DNA of 33,797 nucleotides from Deltaproteobacteria bacterium. GTDB lineage: Bacteria > Desulfobacterota > Desulfobacteria > Desulfobacterales > UBA11574. Position 1 is the first letter of the stretch; each line of letters begins with the position of its first letter. This document shows, one piece after another, positions 17,450 through 30,312 of the stretch. Below the pieces are notes generated by a model, which ran no database searches, was not told the origin of the DNA, and was given only the letters and a program-made list of their open reading frames with translations. Location of the stretch: NCBI GenBank assembly GCA_019308685.1, contig JAFDHQ010000020.1, positions 1 through 33,797 on the forward strand, written 5' to 3'. Position numbers and translations under genes: made by a program.

Positions 17450-17908
17450 ATGAAAACGGTTTATGTTAACGATGCCAATCAAGCATCGATAATCTGTCCC
17501 AAATGCGGCTTTACCAAAGAGATAGATATGACGAATTTCAAGAATGCTCAAAAGAGCCTGAAGGGAAAATGCCGATGTGGCGAGGTTTTTGGGTTCAGCA
17601 TCGAATTTCGAAAAAACTACCGCAAGAAAGTCAGACTCGCCGGCGAATACCGTATTAACAGAAAAGAGAAAAAGGGCGAAATCATCGTTGAAGACCTTTC
17701 AATGAATGGCATTCGGTTTGTAAATTTAGGATTACATCAAATTTCGATAGATGATACATTGGAAATAAAATTTGAGTTAGATAACCAGATGAGATCAGAA
17801 ATCAACACACTCGTTCAGGTGGTATGGGTGAAAGATCAAATGGTCGGCGCAAAATTCAGCGGACCGAAATCGTTTAAATCGGAGTTGGGCTTTTATTTGA
17901 GAACATAA
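17450..17908 (+). CDS. Zinc-ribbon-like + PilZ domain protein (paralog of 29854-30312)
   Basis: CPKCGFTK...CRCGEVF, then FRKNYRKKVR (RxxxR) and EDLSMNGIRF (DxSxxG). Confidence 0.85.
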   Translation: MKTVYVNDANQASIICPKCGFTKEIDMTNFKNAQKSLKGKCRCGEVFGFSIEFRKNYRKKVRLAGEYRINRKEKKGEIIVEDLSMNGIRFVNLGLHQISIDDTLEIKFELDNQMRSEINTLVQVVWVKDQMVGAKFSGPKSFKSELGFYLRT

Positions 17909-20482: not shown

Positions 20483-22609
20483 TTGAATTTTATACAGGCA
20501 GTCTTTATGAACAATGACAAAGGAATCTTCAAAATGATTAATTTTGGGAAATCGATCCAATCTCATTTTTTGAAGAAATTTCATTGGGGCTTTATCATGC
20601 TCTTAATGGTTTTTCTTTTTATTTGCAGTCCCTTCGTGATTCGAAGCGCAAGTGCAGATTACGTCTCTGAAGAGAGTTTGCCCGATTTGACGGAACTCAG
20701 TATTGAAGACCTGATGAATATCGAAGTTGTTTCTGTCTCAAAAAAAGCCCAGAAATTCTCTGACTCGGCTGCAGCAATATTTGTCATTACACAGGAAGAC
20801 ATTCGGAGATCCGGCGTAAACAGCATACCCGATGCCTTGCGAATGGTCCCTGGTATTCAGGTTGCACGGATCGATGCAAATAAATGGGCTATTAGTTCTC
20901 GGGGTTTCGGCACCAGGTTTACAAACAAATTGCTGGTGCTGATGGACGGCCGAACCATATACACGCCGCTTTACTCCGGTGTTTTTTGGGGCACTCAGGA
21001 CACCGTGCTTGAAGATATAGACCGGATTGAGGTCATCCGGGGACCGGGAGCGGCCATGTGGGGCGCCAATGCCGTGAATGGTGTCATCAATATCATTACG
21101 AAAAAAGCAAGTGAAACACAAGGTACGCTGATTAGCGCAGGTGCCGGGAGCGAAGAGCGTATTTTTAGCAATGTTCGATATGGCGGAAAGATGCACGACA
21201 ACGGATACTTCCGGATTTATGGCAAATATTTCGAACGTGATAATTTCATCGAGCGCGACGAAAGTAGAGGTTCAGATGAATGGGATGCCCTGCGGGCGGG
21301 AGTCCGGTTGGATTGGAACGATTCTTTTACGATACTTGGGGAAATTTTCGATGGTGATTCCGGCGGTAGAATAAATACGGTGACGTTTACGTCCCCATAC
21401 AGCCAGATCATCGAAGACGACATCAAAAACTCCGGCGGACATGTTTTGCTGCGATGGGACAAGTATATATCCGATACATCCGATTTATCCGCTCAGTTTT
21501 ATTACGATCGACTTGAATATGAGTTTAGTCTCTTGGGAACGGAAGTCGACACATTTGATATCGATATTCAGCACCGGTTTCCACTGGGAGAACGCCAGGA
21601 AATTATTTGGGGACTGGGTTACCGTTATATTCAGGATGATATTACCAATACAGATATACTGTCCCTGACCCCCGATGACGATGAGTACGATTTAATCAGT
21701 GCGTTCATCCAGGATGAAATTTCATTTCTGGATAAAACCCTTCACTTTATTATCGGTTCCAAGTTCGAACACAATGACTTTACCGGATTCGAAATCCAGC
21801 CGAATATGCGAATCTTGTGGTCGCCCAAAGATCGATATTCGGTCTGGGCTTCTGTTTCCAGGGCCGTAAGGACACCGAACCGCGTAGAAGATGGCTTCAA
21901 AATCGACAACGCTGTTAAACCCGCCGGTTCGTTACTCCCGGTTTTTCCAGGAGCAGGTGTGGTTAGAATTTTGGGAAACCGCGATTTTGACTCCGAAGAT
22001 CTCCTCGCTTTCGAGTTCGGCGTGAGATCATGGTTTAGGGACAACTTGTCCATTGATGTTGCGGCCTATTATAATATTTACGACAACCTGCGTGATCAAA
22101 CCGCCGGGGTCCCCTTTGTGGATCCGTCGTTCTCTCCTGCGGTTCTCATTTTACCCTATGTAAATAATAACAATATGGATGGTGAAACCTTTGGCATAGA
22201 ACTGGCTGCTGATTATCGGCCGTTTGAATGGTGGAAACTCAAAGCTGCATATACCTACCTTCAAATTAACCTTCATACCGACGGCATTTTAACTCTTGGA
22301 CAGGAAAAAAGCGAGGAAGGAAGCAGTCCCCACAATCAAATTTCATTGCGTTCAACCATGGATTTAAAGAAGAATTTTGAACTGGATTTATGGGGCCGGT
22401 ACGTGGACAACCTCACCGGGCAGAATATAGGCAGTTATATTACCATGGATGCAAGGTTGGCGTGGAAACCGTCGAAAATTGTTGAGGTGGCTGTTGTTGG
22501 ACAAAACCTTTTTGACAAGTCACATCCTGAATTTGAGCCTCAATTTTTGCAAACCATACCGACGGAAGTTGAACGAGGGGTGTATTTAAAAGTCAGCCTC
22601 TCATTTTAA
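20483..22609 (+). CDS. TonB-dependent outer-membrane receptor
   Basis: Plug domain (VFVITQEDIRRSGVNSIPDALRMVPGIQVARIDANKWAISSRGF...IEVIRGPGAAMWGANAVNGVINIITK), beta-barrel, terminal aromatic F. Confidence 0.93.
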   Translation: MNFIQAVFMNNDKGIFKMINFGKSIQSHFLKKFHWGFIMLLMVFLFICSPFVIRSASADYVSEESLPDLTELSIEDLMNIEVVSVSKKAQKFSDSAAAIFVITQEDIRRSGVNSIPDALRMVPGIQVARIDANKWAISSRGFGTRFTNKLLVLMDGRTIYTPLYSGVFWGTQDTVLEDIDRIEVIRGPGAAMWGANAVNGVINIITKKASETQGTLISAGAGSEERIFSNVRYGGKMHDNGYFRIYGKYFERDNFIERDESRGSDEWDALRAGVRLDWNDSFTILGEIFDGDSGGRINTVTFTSPYSQIIEDDIKNSGGHVLLRWDKYISDTSDLSAQFYYDRLEYEFSLLGTEVDTFDIDIQHRFPLGERQEIIWGLGYRYIQDDITNTDILSLTPDDDEYDLISAFIQDEISFLDKTLHFIIGSKFEHNDFTGFEIQPNMRILWSPKDRYSVWASVSRAVRTPNRVEDGFKIDNAVKPAGSLLPVFPGAGVVRILGNRDFDSEDLLAFEFGVRSWFRDNLSIDVAAYYNIYDNLRDQTAGVPFVDPSFSPAVLILPYVNNNNMDGETFGIELAADYRPFEWWKLKAAYTYLQINLHTDGILTLGQEKSEEGSSPHNQISLRSTMDLKKNFELDLWGRYVDNLTGQNIGSYITMDARLAWKPSKIVEVAVVGQNLFDKSHPEFEPQFLQTIPTEVERGVYLKVSLSF

Positions 22610-22618
22610 CTGACACCA

Positions 22619-23242
22619 GTGGCTGCGACAAACATGGGAATGATATTTAGGTGGATATTACCAGGTTCGATCATGCGAATTTATAGAAACAGGATATTAG
22701 AAATAATAAAGGGTTTCTTACTTTTCGTGGCATTTCTCTTTGTGGTGATCCAGCCCGTTGGACGAGCCACCGCAAGAGTTTCCCTCGAGTACCATGTCAA
22801 GGCAGCATTTCTCTATAATTTTACAAAATTTGTGAAATGGCCCGAAAAAGCGTTTGCAAACGCAACATCACCGATTAAAATTTGCATTCTGGGAGACTCT
22901 CCCTTCGGGCCATCGCTGGATGCCATTAAAAATAAAACAGCCGGCGGCAGAAAACTTGTGATTTTTGAAGCCAAGAGCGTGGATGATGTCGAAGATTGTC
23001 ATGTTCTTTTCATTAGTAGTAGTTCGGAAAAAGAGTTTTTCGATTCGATTGAACGCTTTCGGGAAAAAAGTGTCTTCACTGTAGGAGACAAACAGGGCCT
23101 TGCTCGAAAAGGATGTGTTATTAATTTCATCGTGGTCAACAATAAAGTCCGGTTCGAAATTAATACAAAATCCGCAGAGAGAGCTAATTTGAAGATCAGT
23201 TCACAATTACTGAAAATTGCCAGGATCGTTAATGATGAATAG
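22619..23242 (+). CDS. YfiR/DUF4154-family periplasmic protein
   Basis: N-terminal TM/signal, then YHVKAAFLYNFTKFVKWPEKAF...ICILGDSPFG...GLARKGCVINFIVVNNKVRFEIN. True start may be downstream of GTG 22619. Confidence 0.85.
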   Translation: MAATNMGMIFRWILPGSIMRIYRNRILEIIKGFLLFVAFLFVVIQPVGRATARVSLEYHVKAAFLYNFTKFVKWPEKAFANATSPIKICILGDSPFGPSLDAIKNKTAGGRKLVIFEAKSVDDVEDCHVLFISSSSEKEFFDSIERFREKSVFTVGDKQGLARKGCVINFIVVNNKVRFEINTKSAERANLKISSQLLKIARIVNDE

Positions 23243-23251
23243 GAGATTTTA

Positions 23252-24889
23252 ATGCTGTCTTTTCGTGATGCATCGATTAAGAGAAAGCTTCTGGCAAGTA
23301 TCATGGTAACCTGTCTCGTTGCACTGGTCCTGTCGTCTGCGGTGTTTATGGCTTTCCAGATAATCTATTACAAAAGGTCAACCATAAAGGGACTGGCCAC
23401 TCTTGCTGAAATGATCGGCACCAACAGCACTGCAGCCATTGTCTTCAACGATCCCGGTTCGGCTGAACAGACACTCGCCGCATTGAAAGCGGAGCCTACC
23501 ATCACTGAAGCCTTGATATTTAATCCAAAAAATGAGCTTTTCGCAACATATGCCTCAGCAGGAAAGATCAAATCATCTTCAACCCCGACGACTGAAGAAG
23601 AAGGGCATCAATTCAAAGGTAATTTATTAACACTTTGGAGACATATCGTATTTGACGGAAATAAAATTGGGACTGTGTATATAAAATCGGATTTAAAGCC
23701 TTTTTACCGTCAGATCAACCATTTCTTATTGATAATGGTTGCCATTATGATCCTTTCGGCGTGTCTTTCTTATTTACTGGCAACTAAGTTTAGAAAAAAC
23801 ATATCCACACCAATTTTGAGTCTTGCCGAATCCATGAAGAATGTCTCGAACAACAAAAATTATTCAATCCGCCTCAGAAGGACCACAAGAGATGAGCTGG
23901 GATCCCTTATCAATGGATTTAACAACATGCTCGAGCAGATCGAAATTAGAGACAAAGAGCTTGAAAAGCACCGACATCATCTTGAGGATGAAGTCGAAAG
24001 GAGGACTCAGGAGCTCCTCGAAACCAATAGGAACTTAGAGCAGGCAATTCATGAAATGGAGATTGCTAAAAGATCCGCTGAGCTCGCAAATAAAGCAAAA
24101 AGCGATTTTTTAGCCAACATGAGCCATGAATTGAGGACACCGCTGAATCATATCATTGGATTTACCGAACTGGTCGTTGATAAAAACTTCGGAGACATCA
24201 ACAAGACACAGGAGGAATATTTGAATGATGTCCTGGACAGCAGCCGTCATTTGCTGTCCCTCATCAACGATATTTTAGATTTATCTAAGGTGGAAGCCGG
24301 CAAAATTGAACTCGAACCTTCCAGAATAAATCTGCAAGATCTACTTGAAAACAGCCTGACCATGGTAAAAGAAAAGGCGATAAAGCATGGCTTGCAGATG
24401 GAACTCGATGTGAACGGCATACCCGATCTCATCACAGTGGACGAGCGCAAAATTAAACAGATCATCTACAACCTGCTGTCCAATTCAGTTAAATTTACCC
24501 CTGACGGTGGACAGATCCAAGTCACCGCACAAATGATGAATAGTGATGATCTCCATTCTCGTTTAGAAGCTGTTGGACTTTCCCCTTTAAGTTCTGAATC
24601 CGTCGAAAACAATCGGGATTGGGCCCTGCTTTCCGTAAAAGATACGGGCATTGGCATTAAACCGGAGGCGCTGAGCCGGATATTCAATCCTTTTGAACAG
24701 GTTGAAATTTCTATAAGCAGGAAATATCAGGGAACCGGTTTAGGGCTCTCATTGGTCAAAAGCATGGTTGAGCTTCATGGCGGAAGGATTTGGGTTGAAA
24801 GCGAAGGTCTGGGCAAGGGTGCGACATTTTCGTTTGTCATACCGGTGAATATCGATGCCGGCGTAAAGAATGAGGAGTTAAAGAGATGA
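23252..24889 (+). CDS. Membrane histidine kinase: CHASE8-type periplasmic sensor, HAMP, HisKA, HATPase_c
   Basis: TM-ATLAEMIGTNSTAAIVFNDPGSAEQTLAALKAEPTITEALIFN (CHASE8-like), TM, HAMP, FLANMSHELRTPLNHIIGF H-box, NLLSNSVKFTPDGG, GTGLGLSLV. Confidence 0.92.
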   Translation: MLSFRDASIKRKLLASIMVTCLVALVLSSAVFMAFQIIYYKRSTIKGLATLAEMIGTNSTAAIVFNDPGSAEQTLAALKAEPTITEALIFNPKNELFATYASAGKIKSSSTPTTEEEGHQFKGNLLTLWRHIVFDGNKIGTVYIKSDLKPFYRQINHFLLIMVAIMILSACLSYLLATKFRKNISTPILSLAESMKNVSNNKNYSIRLRRTTRDELGSLINGFNNMLEQIEIRDKELEKHRHHLEDEVERRTQELLETNRNLEQAIHEMEIAKRSAELANKAKSDFLANMSHELRTPLNHIIGFTELVVDKNFGDINKTQEEYLNDVLDSSRHLLSLINDILDLSKVEAGKIELEPSRINLQDLLENSLTMVKEKAIKHGLQMELDVNGIPDLITVDERKIKQIIYNLLSNSVKFTPDGGQIQVTAQMMNSDDLHSRLEAVGLSPLSSESVENNRDWALLSVKDTGIGIKPEALSRIFNPFEQVEISISRKYQGTGLGLSLVKSMVELHGGRIWVESEGLGKGATFSFVIPVNIDAGVKNEELKR

Positions 24890-25281
24890 AAAACCAAACC
24901 GTTTTGGTTATAGAGGACAATCCGTCAAATATGAAGCTGGTGAGAGCGCTTCTCGAGCTCGGAAATTTCCAGGCCATTGAGGCGGAAACCGCTCAAAAGG
25001 GCATCGATCTGGCCAAGAAAATGATTCCGGATCTTATCCTGATGGACATTCAGTTACCTGATATGAATGGACTTAACGCCACCCGGGCTATCCGGCAGAT
25101 AGAGTCCATTAATCATATACCGATTGTCGCATTGACTGCCTATGCGATGCAAGGTGATCAGGAAAAGGCACTGAACGCAGGTTGCTCCGGATACATAACA
25201 AAACCATTGAGCACCAGGAGCTTTCTAAAAAAAATCCATGAGTATATCAATCAAGATGTGAAGGAACGTTCAGAACATTAA
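24886..25281 (+). CDS. Single-domain response regulator (REC, DivK/CheY-like)
   Basis: VLVIEDNPSNMKLV, DLILMDIQLPDMNG, ALTAYAM, GYITKP; ATGA overlap with the kinase gene. Confidence 0.93.
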   Translation: MKNQTVLVIEDNPSNMKLVRALLELGNFQAIEAETAQKGIDLAKKMIPDLILMDIQLPDMNGLNATRAIRQIESINHIPIVALTAYAMQGDQEKALNAGCSGYITKPLSTRSFLKKIHEYINQDVKERSEH

Positions 25282-25317
25282 CCACAAATTCTTTTTCTGT
25301 AAGGGTTAGGAGTCATA

Positions 25318-26853
25318 GTGTCAATTTCAAGTAATGTAGAGGTGTTGGATAAAAGAACGTTGATTGACCCTGTAGATATAAACACCTATGAAAAACAGGT
25401 AGGCGCCCCTTTTATTGACAGCTTGACGGGTCTTCCCAATCATGGATTCTTCATTATGACATTGGATCGTGAAACCAAACGATCCGAGCGCTTTGGCTCA
25501 TCCATCAGCGTTGGGTTGATCAACATCGATTGTTTCAGGCTGCTCAATAAGAGTAAAGGCAGTGTGGAGGGAGACCGTATCCTTAGGAAAGTAGCGGAAT
25601 GTATCCAAAACAGCATCCGGCAGGTCGACCTTGCCGCCAGGTTGTATGGTGACCTTTTCGCCGTCATTTTCACAGAGTCTGCCCTCGAAAACGCCGTGAA
25701 TGCTGCAGAGCGAATCCGTTTGAATATAGAAAAAACCCAAAATAAAATGGTTACGGCCAGCATCGGCCTTAGTGGATATCCAAGACATACGAAAAAGCCG
25801 TCTTCTCTGTTACAAGAGGCATATGCGGCACTCATCAAATCAAAAACAAAAGGGAAAAATTGTATTTCCTATGCGACCGAAACAACGAATAAGGTGGATA
25901 CGATTGCACCCAATGTTCTCATTGTGGATGATATCCCGAAAAATCTAAAACTATTGGAGGGGATGCTACAGCCATTGCGTTATCACGTGCTTAAAGCAGA
26001 CAGCGGAGAAGCTGCCTTGGATATTATGAGCAAGGTTGATGTGGATCTTGTCTTGCTCGATGTGATGATGCCAGGTTTGGATGGGTTCGAGGTATGCCGA
26101 AGAATTAAAAATGATCCCCGACTCAGAATTGTCCCTATCATTTTAGTGACGGCATTGGATGATTCGAAATCCAAAATAATGGGGATCGAAGCCGGGGCCG
26201 ATGATTTTATTTCTAAGCCGCCCAACAAGGCCGAACTCATCGCTCGCACCAGATCACTCATCAAGCTCAAGCAAATTAACAGTAATCTGGTCGATATTGA
26301 AAATGTTCTTTTTTCGCTTGCCAGAGCCGTGGAAGCGAAAGACGCTTATACCCAGGGGCATATCGAACGGGTGTCGAACTTAGCCATGGTGTTGGGGCGA
26401 AAACTGGGCTTGAATGAAAAGGAGCTTGAGGCGTTGAAATATGGCGGCATTCTTCATGACGTCGGCAAGATAGCGGTGCCGAGGGAGATTTTGAACAAAC
26501 TGGGACGATTGAATGAAGAAGAGTGGGAGGTGATGAAATCACATTCTATCGTGGGGTATCAAATCTGCCTGCCGTTGGAAAAGAATCTCGGTCCGGCTTT
26601 GGATGTCATTCGCTACCACCATGAAAAAATGGATGGCAGCGGATATCCGGATCACCTGAAAGGGAAAGATATTCCGGTTGTCGCCAGGATTGTGGCGGTT
26701 ACGGATATTTATGATGCGATCATAACGGACAGGCCCTATCGAAAAGGAATGTCTCGGAAAGAAGCCATTGACATTCTTCTAAAAGAAGCCGAAGATGGCA
26801 AACTCGACCCTGAAATCGTCCAACTGCTGGTGGATCATCTCACATCCAAATAG
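25318..26853 (+). CDS. Degenerate GGDEF - REC - HD-GYP protein (GTG start)
   Basis: DSLTGLPNHGFF...RLYGDLFAV (GGDEF position degenerate), VLIVDDIPKN...LLDVMMPG, GGILHDVGKIAVP...HHEKMDGSGYP. Confidence 0.92.
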   Translation: MSISSNVEVLDKRTLIDPVDINTYEKQVGAPFIDSLTGLPNHGFFIMTLDRETKRSERFGSSISVGLINIDCFRLLNKSKGSVEGDRILRKVAECIQNSIRQVDLAARLYGDLFAVIFTESALENAVNAAERIRLNIEKTQNKMVTASIGLSGYPRHTKKPSSLLQEAYAALIKSKTKGKNCISYATETTNKVDTIAPNVLIVDDIPKNLKLLEGMLQPLRYHVLKADSGEAALDIMSKVDVDLVLLDVMMPGLDGFEVCRRIKNDPRLRIVPIILVTALDDSKSKIMGIEAGADDFISKPPNKAELIARTRSLIKLKQINSNLVDIENVLFSLARAVEAKDAYTQGHIERVSNLAMVLGRKLGLNEKELEALKYGGILHDVGKIAVPREILNKLGRLNEEEWEVMKSHSIVGYQICLPLEKNLGPALDVIRYHHEKMDGSGYPDHLKGKDIPVVARIVAVTDIYDAIITDRPYRKGMSRKEAIDILLKEAEDGKLDPEIVQLLVDHLTSK

Positions 26854-26905: not shown

Positions 26906-27859
26906 TTAATTCACCGATTCTTCCTGCTGTTGCGAGACACAAAATCCCCGTAAACGGTGACCCAGCAGTTCCAGGAGTTTAAACTGAAGATCAGGATTGC
27001 CCAATAGCTGTTCTTTAAATATTTTTTGATTGATGACCATCACGTCAACATGCGTTTCTGCAATGACATCCGTTGAGCGGGGTTTCTGGGTCAACAGGGA
27101 GAGTTCCCCGAAGATTTCACCTTCGCCCAAATGTGTAATGATTGTTTCACCCCGGTCACCCTTGCGTCGCCCTTTCATAGAAACGGTCACGCGGCCGTCA
27201 ACAATTACGTACGCACAGTCGCCCATATCACCGCATTGGATGATCTTTTCACCGGCCTTGAAAAACTCACGCTCGAAAGTCCTCAATTTGCCATGAAAAC
27301 CTTGAAACCGGGCCATCTCATAAAACTTTGGAGATATTTCCTTTAAATCCAACAACATTGGCAATACTTCTATTCCAAGCTCTTTGTTGATAAATGACGG
27401 GTGAATTCTTTTAAACCCCATACCTTTCATCATATTTTCTACAAGTGGGTTTATGGCCGCTATCACGTGACTGACGTTTCTCGATATTACCCAGCAAACA
27501 CCCATGCTGAGCAGCATGAAAATCAACCGGGGAACTTTTCTGTACCGTTTCTTAATGCAAAACATACTTGCCGCCGCTACTTTCGAAGAATCGGCCGGGA
27601 TATGGGGTCTGAAATCGAATAAGTGTTCTGAAGGTGTACCGACTTTGGAAAATTCGGTGATTCTAAGACCGCCCACAACCTCCTGATCAAACATGGCAAT
27701 GATATTAACGGTTAATGGAAAGGCGTCAAACCGGTCAAAGATACGACCCGATGGATTTGGTTTGAAATACCCTTCTTCTTCAACAAATATCTCGTGTCTT
27801 GCATGAAAGAGTTGGTGTATTTCTTCAGCAGTTTGCGCGATTTTGACTCTTACAGACAT
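26906..27859 (-). CDS. N-acyl-amino-acid/AHL synthase-like (GNAT superfamily) acyltransferase fused to C-terminal cyclic-nucleotide-binding domain
   Basis: N-term EEIHQLFHARHEIFVEEEGYF...GGLRITEF...AAASMFCIKKRYR; C-term FKAGEKIIQCGDMGDCAYVIVDGRVTVS...LGEGEIFGELSLLTQKPRSTDVIA (cNMP-binding cassette). Confidence 0.75.
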   Translation of the reverse strand: MSVRVKIAQTAEEIHQLFHARHEIFVEEEGYFKPNPSGRIFDRFDAFPLTVNIIAMFDQEVVGGLRITEFSKVGTPSEHLFDFRPHIPADSSKVAAASMFCIKKRYRKVPRLIFMLLSMGVCWVISRNVSHVIAAINPLVENMMKGMGFKRIHPSFINKELGIEVLPMLLDLKEISPKFYEMARFQGFHGKLRTFEREFFKAGEKIIQCGDMGDCAYVIVDGRVTVSMKGRRKGDRGETIITHLGEGEIFGELSLLTQKPRSTDVIAETHVDVMVINQKIFKEQLLGNPDLQFKLLELLGHRLRGFCVSQQQEESVN

Positions 27860-29556
27860 GTATTAGATCTTTCGGTATCAGCACTTCTTTTTGGGTGTTG
27901 AAAAATTGGCGATGCATGAAATTCATATCTTCCAGGTGATAAAATACTGTCCGGATCCAAAAGATTCTTAATGCGACTCACCAGTTCATCGTAGTGGCTA
28001 TTGGTACCGGTAAGAGCTGCCATCGATTGAATACCCAGCCGGTATGGATAGTATCCGGCCATAATAAACGAATTCAGCATTTTATCATGGCATTCAATTG
28101 CCTTCTCATCCTCACCGGAAACATCCCGGTCATATACGATAGATGGAAACATATAAACCGCCCGCTCCGATGGAAAAATAAATGCGATCTGCGGCTCAAA
28201 ACCAAACTCCTCAGCGGTTTTTTGGGCAATTTTGATGGCCCGAGACAAATGGTTGCTCATAAAGGGCACCACCGGACAGAGCCAAATAATACCGCATCTG
28301 TCTTTATCCGGATCCATGGTCCGGGGTAGAGAAAATTTTTTCCGCCAATACGTGCTGCGGGTGCTTTTTTCCGTGGGAAATCCCAAAAAAACCGATTCAT
28401 CATAAAGGGCTTTAATGGTATCTTTAAGGCTGGTTCCAGTCAGCCACTGTAATGGCCTGTTCATCCATCCCATAACTCGTGCTTTGGCTTCATTGATGAA
28501 AAATATCCTGTCCGTATAGGATCCCAGCATCTTTTTTATGATTTTTCGATCAGCCCTGGCGTGCCGTCTGCTGGGACTATATATACCCCCAACGCCGACC
28601 CATTCACTCTTCCCCCATGGCGATTTGATTCTCTTTATTTTCTCAAGTGGCAGCGGCGTTTGACCGCTCGTGATTTCCCAAGGGTACTGGCGATCTGATG
28701 CAATCATTTTATAGACGTTCCACACCGCGACACTATTCGCTTTAACCACGCCTTGTGCTTGAAGCTGGTTAAGATTATCGATGACCAGATTCAACTGTGA
28801 CATATTTCTTACGGTGAACACCAGGGACTGAAACCACCCCGGATGTGCTTGGAGCCAAAATGACATACGGGTTACAATGCCAAAATTGGATTGAGAAAAA
28901 AGGCCATCCAGATGAGGTCCAATGCCCCATCGTGTAAGATTTCCCACCTTGGCGCCCGGAAACCTTGAATATCCGGTCTGTATACAGTCCCCGCTCGGCA
29001 AGACGATCTCCATGTCGCAGCAATGTGAAAAACGATCGCCCAGGGGGCCGATGCCATCGCCTCGCTCCATGGCATTCCCAATGAGGCTTGCATCTGGCGA
29101 ACCTCCGGTCACGGCAATAAAATGCCTGGAATTTCGTTCCCGTAAGTAATTCGCCGCTTGTATGAATGTGACACCTGGTTCGACAGTGATATATGCGAGT
29201 TCATCATCATAGTCCACAATTCGGGTCATCCGGCTGAGATCAAAAAGCACACAGTTGTCTTGAACCGGCACGCGGGAGCCCAGCCCCCAGTTCTTTCCCT
29301 GGCTGATGGGATAAATGGATATCTTATACCTGGCGGCAATGCGAACACAGTGCTGAACCTGAGACTTGCTTTTGGGATAAATAATAGCTGGAATTTTTTG
29401 TACCGTTTTAAAGGTCGCCGTCTCTGCGTCAACAACGCTTTCATTTTGCGTATCAACATTTTCCTCACCGAGATAATTAGACCAATCTTCAATCGCCTTT
29501 TGATAACGGTTCATAATGTCCTTTCCCAAAAAAAGAGTTAGATCTTTAATTGCCAT
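27850..29556 (-). CDS. FAD-dependent oxidase/dehydrogenase of the VAO/PCMH family (p-cresol methylhydroxylase flavoprotein / vanillyl-alcohol oxidase-like)
   Basis: PAIIYPKSKSQVQHCVRIAARYKISIYPISQGKNWGLGSRVPVQDNCVLFDLSRM...VEPGVTFIQAANYL...TGGSPDASLIGNAMERGDG...; overlaps the downstream acyltransferase start by 10 bp. Confidence 0.85.
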   Translation of the reverse strand: MAIKDLTLFLGKDIMNRYQKAIEDWSNYLGEENVDTQNESVVDAETATFKTVQKIPAIIYPKSKSQVQHCVRIAARYKISIYPISQGKNWGLGSRVPVQDNCVLFDLSRMTRIVDYDDELAYITVEPGVTFIQAANYLRERNSRHFIAVTGGSPDASLIGNAMERGDGIGPLGDRFSHCCDMEIVLPSGDCIQTGYSRFPGAKVGNLTRWGIGPHLDGLFSQSNFGIVTRMSFWLQAHPGWFQSLVFTVRNMSQLNLVIDNLNQLQAQGVVKANSVAVWNVYKMIASDRQYPWEITSGQTPLPLEKIKRIKSPWGKSEWVGVGGIYSPSRRHARADRKIIKKMLGSYTDRIFFINEAKARVMGWMNRPLQWLTGTSLKDTIKALYDESVFLGFPTEKSTRSTYWRKKFSLPRTMDPDKDRCGIIWLCPVVPFMSNHLSRAIKIAQKTAEEFGFEPQIAFIFPSERAVYMFPSIVYDRDVSGEDEKAIECHDKMLNSFIMAGYYPYRLGIQSMAALTGTNSHYDELVSRIKNLLDPDSILSPGRYEFHASPIFQHPKRSADTERSNTCL

Positions 29557-29853: not shown

Positions 29854-30312
29854 TTATTTCCTCAGATAAAACCCCAAATCTTTTTCAAGTAATTTTGGAT
29901 TATTGAACTGTGCTCCGACATTGCGGTCGTTGATCCATTTTATTTTGATAGTCGTGTGGATTTCTGTTTTCATTGGATTATCTAAATTAAATTTCAATTC
30001 GACTAAATCATCTTTGGAAAAATTATGTGGCTTAAAAGTTGTAAAATTGGTTCCAGTCATTGAAATGTCTATGATTAGAATATCATCCCTTTCATTTTTT
30101 TCATGGATAAAGCATTCACCAGCAAGCTGAACCTTCTTACGGTAATACTTTCGAAAATCCAAGGTGAGCCGAAATTCTTCGCCACATTTACATTGAACCT
30201 TTAGTCTCTTATGGGTATCCTTAAATTTAAATACATTTATATTTTTTTCTAATTCGCATTTGGGGCAGATTATCTTTACCTGATTGGTACGGCCTACATA
30301 AACTTTTTCCAT
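29854..30312 (-). CDS. Zinc-ribbon-like + PilZ domain protein (paralog of 17450-17908)
   Basis: CPKCELEK...CKCGEEF, FRKYYRKKVQLAGE (RxxxR), IIDISMTGTNF (DxSxxG); same 152-aa length as its paralog. Confidence 0.85.
   Translation of the reverse strand: MEKVYVGRTNQVKIICPKCELEKNINVFKFKDTHKRLKVQCKCGEEFRLTLDFRKYYRKKVQLAGECFIHEKNERDDILIIDISMTGTNFTTFKPHNFSKDDLVELKFNLDNPMKTEIHTTIKIKWINDRNVGAQFNNPKLLEKDLGFYLRK

Follow-up and report, generated by a model that had tools for sequence, protein, structure and literature searches.

A candidate two-gene lipid operon in a Desulfobacterales genome: a FeeM-fold acyltransferase fused to a cyclic-nucleotide-binding domain and an overlapping VAO/PCMH-type flavoprotein gene

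Described systems and the gene pair

The fee cluster comprises 13 genes, with an ACP of its own. FeeG belongs to the VAO/PCMH type of flavoproteins, as does CndG of chondrochloren, which, going by the title of a 2010 report by Rachid, is said to be an oxidative decarboxylase. FeeG oxidatively decarboxylates N-acyl-tyrosine (PMC8762209), and the 4-phenol group of VAO/PCMH flavoproteins contains a clade, OxD, of oxidative decarboxylases (PMC7617285). NasP is, in the accounts of Clardy and Brady 2007 given by PMC4897644 and PMC5643525, a cAMP-activated N-acyl-phenylalanine synthase. N-acyl-Tyr, Phe or Trp are the substrates from which OxzAB, TyzABC and TrzAS form acyl-oxazolones (PMC10404671, PMC12856293). 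With cAMP activation of an N-acyl amino acid synthase (NasP), oxidative decarboxylation of N-acyl-tyrosine (FeeG/CndG) and flavin-dependent desaturation (TyzC/OxzB) already published, the individual ideas of an earlier note on the DNA studied here have precedents and are less new than it implied.

The gene pair at issue lies in a stretch of 33,797 nucleotides analysed as a whole (the window, contig C258), from a 3.26-Mb genome in 283 contigs that is 95 percent complete; within the order, relatives were matched in Desulfobacterales and Desulfosarcinaceae MAGs. The features of the pair are the following.

26906..27859, minus strand: gene 2, fusion of a FeeM-fold N-acyltransferase and a cyclic-nucleotide-binding (CNB) domain, 317 aa, ATG start (ORF list, Pfam, AlphaFold2)
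27850..29556, minus strand: gene 1, VAO/PCMH-type FAD flavoprotein, 568 aa, ATG start, candidate enzyme for oxidative decarboxylation or dehydrogenation of an N-acyl aromatic amino acid (ORF list, Pfam, PDB sequence search)
27850..27859, minus strand: end of gene 1 and beginning of gene 2, overlapping by 10 bp, ATGTCTGTAA (ORF coordinates and sequence)
27290..27859, minus strand: N-terminal acyltransferase domain of gene 2, aa 1-190 (Pfam; predicted fold matching FeeM 2g0b and AHL synthases)
27005..27268, minus strand: CNB domain of gene 2, aa 198-285 (Pfam cNMP_binding PF00027, E 4.6e-19; AlphaFold2)
27074..27115, minus strand: phosphate-binding cassette IFGELSLLTQKPRS, aa 249-262, with Glu252 and Arg261 (sequence and alignment of relatives)
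28975..29388, minus strand: FAD_binding_4 domain of gene 1, aa 57-194 (Pfam, 6.4e-22)
28039..28044, minus strand: Tyr505-Arg506 of gene 1, equivalent to the phenolate-binding Tyr473-Arg474 of p-cresol methylhydroxylase (PCMH), invariant in an 11-sequence alignment
29281..29283, minus strand: Leu92 of gene 1, aligned with PCMH Tyr95; the residue is Tyr in all FeeM- or acyltransferase-linked relatives (alignment)

Both ORFs and their overlap are exactly where the earlier note had placed them. At the junction (...AATACATGTCTGTAAGAG...) the gene 2 ATG lies upstream of the gene 1 TAA, an arrangement suggestive of translational coupling. None of the ORFs, domains, cassette and fold matches of the pair is at chance level. 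Each half has a known precedent; the pairing itself, a CNB-fused synthase with a gene 1-type flavoprotein, was found in the source genome only among all genomes searched.

Set beside the described systems, gene 2 resembles NasP as a predicted N-acyl amino acid synthase that would be controlled directly by a cyclic nucleotide, whereas NasP is beta-proteobacterial. It also resembles Nas343 and Nas354 (PMC4897644), N-acyl amino acid synthases likewise fused C-terminally to a second-messenger-binding domain, but theirs is of the c-di-GMP/PilZ kind and the Glu103 needed in Nas354 is absent from gene 2. With FeeM it has a common fold, but FeeM lacks a CNB domain and possesses a catalytic Glu that is missing here. 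The PEP-CTERM/exosortase-associated acyltransferase TIGR03694, encoded near close relatives of gene 1 (L037, L042 and L093), differs from gene 2 in having no CNB domain and in retaining the E-I-S-R motif. The OxzAB, TyzABC and TrzAS pathways share with the window the combination of an N-acyltransferase with flavin-dependent tailoring, and most CNB-synthase relatives of gene 2 have an OxzB-like neighbour; however, tailoring in those pathways is done by ThiF plus a nitroreductase-type FMN oxidase, while in the window a VAO/PCMH FAD protein is encoded and OxzB is lacking. Gene 1, for its part, belongs to the same fold family as PCMH and the eugenol and vanillyl-alcohol oxidases and has their phenolate-binding Tyr-Arg pair. 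Unlike them, it shows no covalent-FAD His at the VAO position by alignment (gapped there), carries a loop inserted before G422, has Leu in place of PCMH Tyr95 and has no adjacent cytochrome subunit gene.

The predicted fused synthase and its relatives

The N-terminal half of gene 2 is matched best in Pfam by FeeM (PF21926, E 8.5e-18, aa 21-171, 65.1 bits against a cut-off of 27), with weaker matches to Acetyltransf_5 and Autoind_synth (0.0022; 18 bits vs 65 for FeeM). AlphaFold2 modelled the whole protein with a pLDDT of 80.7 and the N-domain with 87.4. In Foldseek searches with the N-domain model the top structural match was FeeM 2g0b (TM 0.77/0.78), and AHL synthases (BjaI, TM 0.71/0.65; TofI, RpaI and LasI) and GNATs were matched as well. 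A sequence search of the PDB with the same domain retrieved AHL synthases and GNATs only and not FeeM, which the structure search did retrieve. The FeeM/LuxI-like nature that had been proposed for this half is thereby borne out at the level of predicted fold.

The C-terminal half had been described as a CNB domain with an FGE...R cassette, and this description holds: next to the PF00027 match, the cassette at aa 249-263 (IFGELSLLTQKPRST) contains F250-G251-E252 and R261, so that its Gly, Glu and Arg are all present and it is intact. E252 and R261 are nearly invariant in the alignment of gene 2 relatives, and the model of this half matches cAMP-bound CRP/GlxR in Foldseek. Two class III nucleotide cyclases are encoded in the source genome. 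The cassette does not point with confidence to either cAMP or cGMP as the ligand.

A defining feature of FeeM-type synthases, the catalytic Glu, appears from the alignment to be missing. Glu103 of Nas354, the equivalent of FeeM Glu95, has been reported as essential (PMC4897644). Gene 2 has Ala96 there, at a position that is variable among its CNB-fused relatives (Ala, Ser, Cys, Gly, Tyr or Thr, never Glu), while canonical FeeM relatives and exosortase-type acyltransferases (motif E-I/F-S) in the same alignment keep the Glu. The location of most CNB-fused relatives in what look like oxazolone operons makes it probable that they are catalytically competent by means of another base.

Those relatives were found by an alignment scan of genome contigs, which gave 16 loci; a single-sequence scan gave none. 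An OxzB-like ThiF-nitroreductase gene is nearby in 12 of the 16, overlapping the synthase gene by 4 bp in L046, L047 and L050, and three others lie near FeeM, MMPL or LolA-like genes. A VAO/PCMH flavoprotein gene adjoins none of the 16. The nearest relative, L043 (38 percent), with which gene 2 branches in the tree (99/98), has lost the CNB cassette residues and matches Autoind_synth at 3.9e-7; at L043:539-3351 its synthase gene is followed by a B12-binding radical-SAM gene. No relatives were found in viral contigs, and plasmids had no full-length relative and only a partial match to the CNB region. OxzB-like proteins are absent beside the pair and from the source genome, where only a 27 percent ThiF match occurs elsewhere. 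Because the CNB-synthase relatives mostly adjoin an OxzB-like gene, the parsimonious reading is that the tailoring partner appears to have been exchanged in the source genome, leaving a gated N-acyltransferase module with a different oxidative enzyme. Acyl-oxazolone synthesis by the window pair itself was rejected for want of an OxzB-like partner.

At L046:4158-7432, L047:2511-5722, L050:1353-4564 and nine further loci, Desulfobacterales-type operons pair a ThiF-nitroreductase fusion with a CNB-fused FeeM-like acyltransferase that is extended at its C-terminus, and these 12 are candidate cyclic-nucleotide-controlled acyl-oxazolone pathways. The literature found by our search makes no mention of a CNB domain in an acyl-oxazolone context. 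In such longer relatives of gene 2 the C-terminal extension looks CRP-like by eye and has no Pfam match; its assignment as a DNA-binding domain was set aside.

The flavoprotein and its genomic company

Gene 1 had been assigned to the VAO/PCMH type, and the assignment, here to the 4-phenol group, is supported by its FAD_binding_4 domain together with similarity to PCMH over the full length. Its best PDB matches by sequence are PCMH (2.8e-61) and the oxidoreductase 8s7s (2.5e-61), followed by eugenol and vanillyl-alcohol oxidases, and its family profile matches PCMH at 3.5e-131. The accompanying idea that it oxidises a phenol fared less evenly: two of the three phenol-contact residues are kept (Y505/R506, which bind the phenolate), but the third, PCMH Tyr95, is Leu92, common only to the Megaera, Azospirillum and catabolic Rhizobium relatives among the sequences compared. 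At the N5-site position, VAO/PCMH enzymes have an acidic residue if they are oxidases and a small one if they are dehydrogenases (PMC7617285). Gly151 of gene 1 aligns there and is small, hence dehydrogenase-like, as would suit an anaerobe. Residues 411-423 contain no His or Tyr, so that neither is seen at the FAD-linking positions, in a region where the alignment is gapped and in a family with non-covalent members. The loop inserted before G422 is common to FeeM-linked members and absent from the catabolic ones compared. The nearest neighbour of gene 1 in the tree is from Azospirillum, with no FeeM in its annotated surroundings.

Among 292 genomes of the order, the flavoprotein occurs in 8, and all 8 also have a FeeM-family gene, which 41 genomes of the whole set possess (hypergeometric 8e-8, without correction for kinship). 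Close relatives of the flavoprotein have FeeM-family or exosortase-type acyltransferases nearby in four Desulfobacterota genomes: as the next gene in G052 and G536, beyond an intervening MMPL exporter in G276, and 7 kb away in G247 with MMPL and LolA-like genes between. Several such loci have an adjacent MMPL exporter, and L094 has a 4-bp overlap between the flavoprotein gene and one for an MMPL-like exporter. On the Methylorubrum populi plasmid pMPPM04 (L099:3068-9711), genes for FeeM (6.5e-39), a methyltransferase, the flavoprotein, a tryptophan-halogenase-like protein and an amidase form one operon with 4-bp overlaps, suggestive of a small pathway to a halogenated N-acyl amino acid. Remoter flavoprotein relatives on plasmids occur in other settings, such as adjoining cytochrome c in Sulfuricurvum. 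We know of no flavoprotein partner for NasP.

The co-occurrence that had been anticipated for the pair therefore holds for this type of flavoprotein, recurrently linked with FeeM-family synthases, but not for the exact combination with a CNB-fused one. Neither gene was found in the remaining members of the family that were sampled, among them six of the same genus, so the pair was either gained or widely lost.

Two further loci deserve mention. At L036:3417-12849, genes for FeeM, a LolA-like protein, an MMPL exporter and the flavoprotein stand on the same strand beside PEP-CTERM proteins, a possible cluster for N-acyl amino acid synthesis and export. A plasmid of Candidatus Megaera polyxenophila, a Rickettsiales endosymbiont, encodes amid transposases a flavoprotein 36.5 percent identical (L098:8977-10587). 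Two of its phenol-contact positions are Leu and Asn, a LysE-like exporter (by eye) is encoded upstream of it, and no acyltransferase was seen nearby.

Proposed function, rival readings and surroundings

We lean towards reading the pair as a minimal lipid operon, in which an N-acyl aromatic amino acid would be made under cyclic-nucleotide gating and then undergo flavin-dependent oxidation. Binding of cAMP or cGMP to the fused CNB domain would switch the activity of gene 2, and NasP makes activation by cAMP a possible direction for such a synthase. With acyl-ACP or acyl-CoA as the donor, gene 2 would attach a fatty acyl chain to the amino group of an amino acid, in the likeliest case an aromatic one, for instance tyrosine; for an aromatic N-acyl product we count the OxzB-like partner type of most CNB-synthase relatives, which tailors N-acyl-Tyr/Phe/Trp (PMC10404671, PMC12856293). 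Gene 1 would then take a hydride from the benzylic carbon of this product via a quinone-methide-type intermediate, the outcome being either oxidative decarboxylation to an N-acyl-aminovinylphenol, as with FeeG/CndG, or an N-acyl-dehydro amino acid. FeeG makes this second step known chemistry, and the OxD clade means that the flavoprotein group of gene 1 includes oxidative decarboxylases. By analogy with FeeG/CndG, decarboxylation is favoured over simple desaturation, and the FeeM linkage as a pointer to such a role for gene 1 is suggestive only. The lipid might act as a signal, a surfactant or an antibiotic. As folds and domains agree with an N-acyl amino acid synthase, a CNB domain and a VAO/PCMH enzyme and the catalytic Glu of the synthase is missing, we describe the pair as working like a gated synthase with an oxidative tailoring enzyme, not as a proven member of either class.

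The alternatives concern different steps. It is unlikely, though worth weighing, that gene 1 desaturates the N-acyl amino acid without loss of CO2, giving an N-acyl-dehydrotyrosine type of product, a reaction for which TyzC/OxzB use a flavoprotein fold unrelated to that of gene 1: the CNB synthase is usually coupled to the desaturating and cyclising ThiF-nitroreductase type, and N-acyl dehydrotyrosines are known natural products whose desaturase is unassigned, but FeeG and CndG act on N-acyl-tyrosine as reported oxidative decarboxylases and the source genome has no OxzB-like protein for the cyclisation step. We regard as improbable that gene 2 is closer to an acyl-homoserine-lactone or other amine acylase, with a non-aromatic acceptor and a signal as product, the flavoprotein acting at a different position or substrate. 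The missing Glu and the weak Autoind_synth match, stronger in L043, would fit such an enzyme, as would R21, F25, D42, D45, R66 and R107 of gene 2, which coincide with the classic conserved positions of LuxI-type proteins. Against it stand the far higher FeeM score in Pfam, FeeM as the top structural match, the OxzB-like operons of the relatives, whose substrates are N-acyl amino acids, and the lack of any recognised LuxR-type gene among the neighbours of the pair that were examined.

Very unlikely, in our view, is that gene 1 is a 4-alkylphenol dehydrogenase of the ordinary catabolic sort, or another member of the VAO family, whose overlap with gene 2 is fortuitous or reflects an operon of different purpose. 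Its distant relatives are catabolic PCMH types, as in Sulfuricurvum, and both its Azospirillum neighbour and its Leu92 speak for this reading, but closer relatives are recurrently linked to FeeM or exosortase-acyltransferase genes and the loop before G422 is the one typical of FeeM-linked members. Returning to the gated lipid operon, a broader picture can be offered only tentatively, and we hold it possible rather than probable: Desulfobacterales may possess an acyltransferase module gated by cyclic nucleotides whose tailoring enzymes are interchangeable, usually being OxzB-like ThiF-nitroreductases (cAMP-controlled oxazolones), possibly a B12-radical-SAM protein in one relative, and a VAO/PCMH flavoprotein in the window, which would represent an anaerobic, second-messenger-controlled route to styryl-amide/dehydro-amino-acid lipids with a synthase devoid of the FeeM catalytic Glu. 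If true, how much of a lipid natural product is made in uncultured relatives of sulfate reducers would depend directly on second-messenger state, and a gated N-acyltransferase would be combinable with different oxidative partners. The pair would also offer a compact two-gene system in which to study CNB control of a FeeM-fold enzyme and catalysis without the proposed general base.

As for the surroundings, no additional gene is clearly part of the gene 1-gene 2 unit. ACP, exporter and electron-acceptor genes are not found adjacent to the pair, and a scan for promoters and terminators stayed at chance level, with no promoter signal above shuffled sequence. An adjacent MMPL exporter was rejected; the best MMPL protein of the genome is encoded on a different contig and shares 23 percent identity with its FeeM-linked counterpart. 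The GC content (45.6 vs 43.0 percent for the window) is uninformative on the origin of the pair. Beyond its 3' end, at window positions 20483-26853, convergent plus-strand genes encode a TonB receptor, a YfiR/HmsC-like protein, a CHASE8 sensor kinase, a response regulator and a GGDEF-REC-HD protein, likely a surface-sensing c-di-GMP unit. Two similar 152-aa PilZ-domain proteins flank the region, one at 17450-17908 and the other, upstream of the pair, at 29854-30312.
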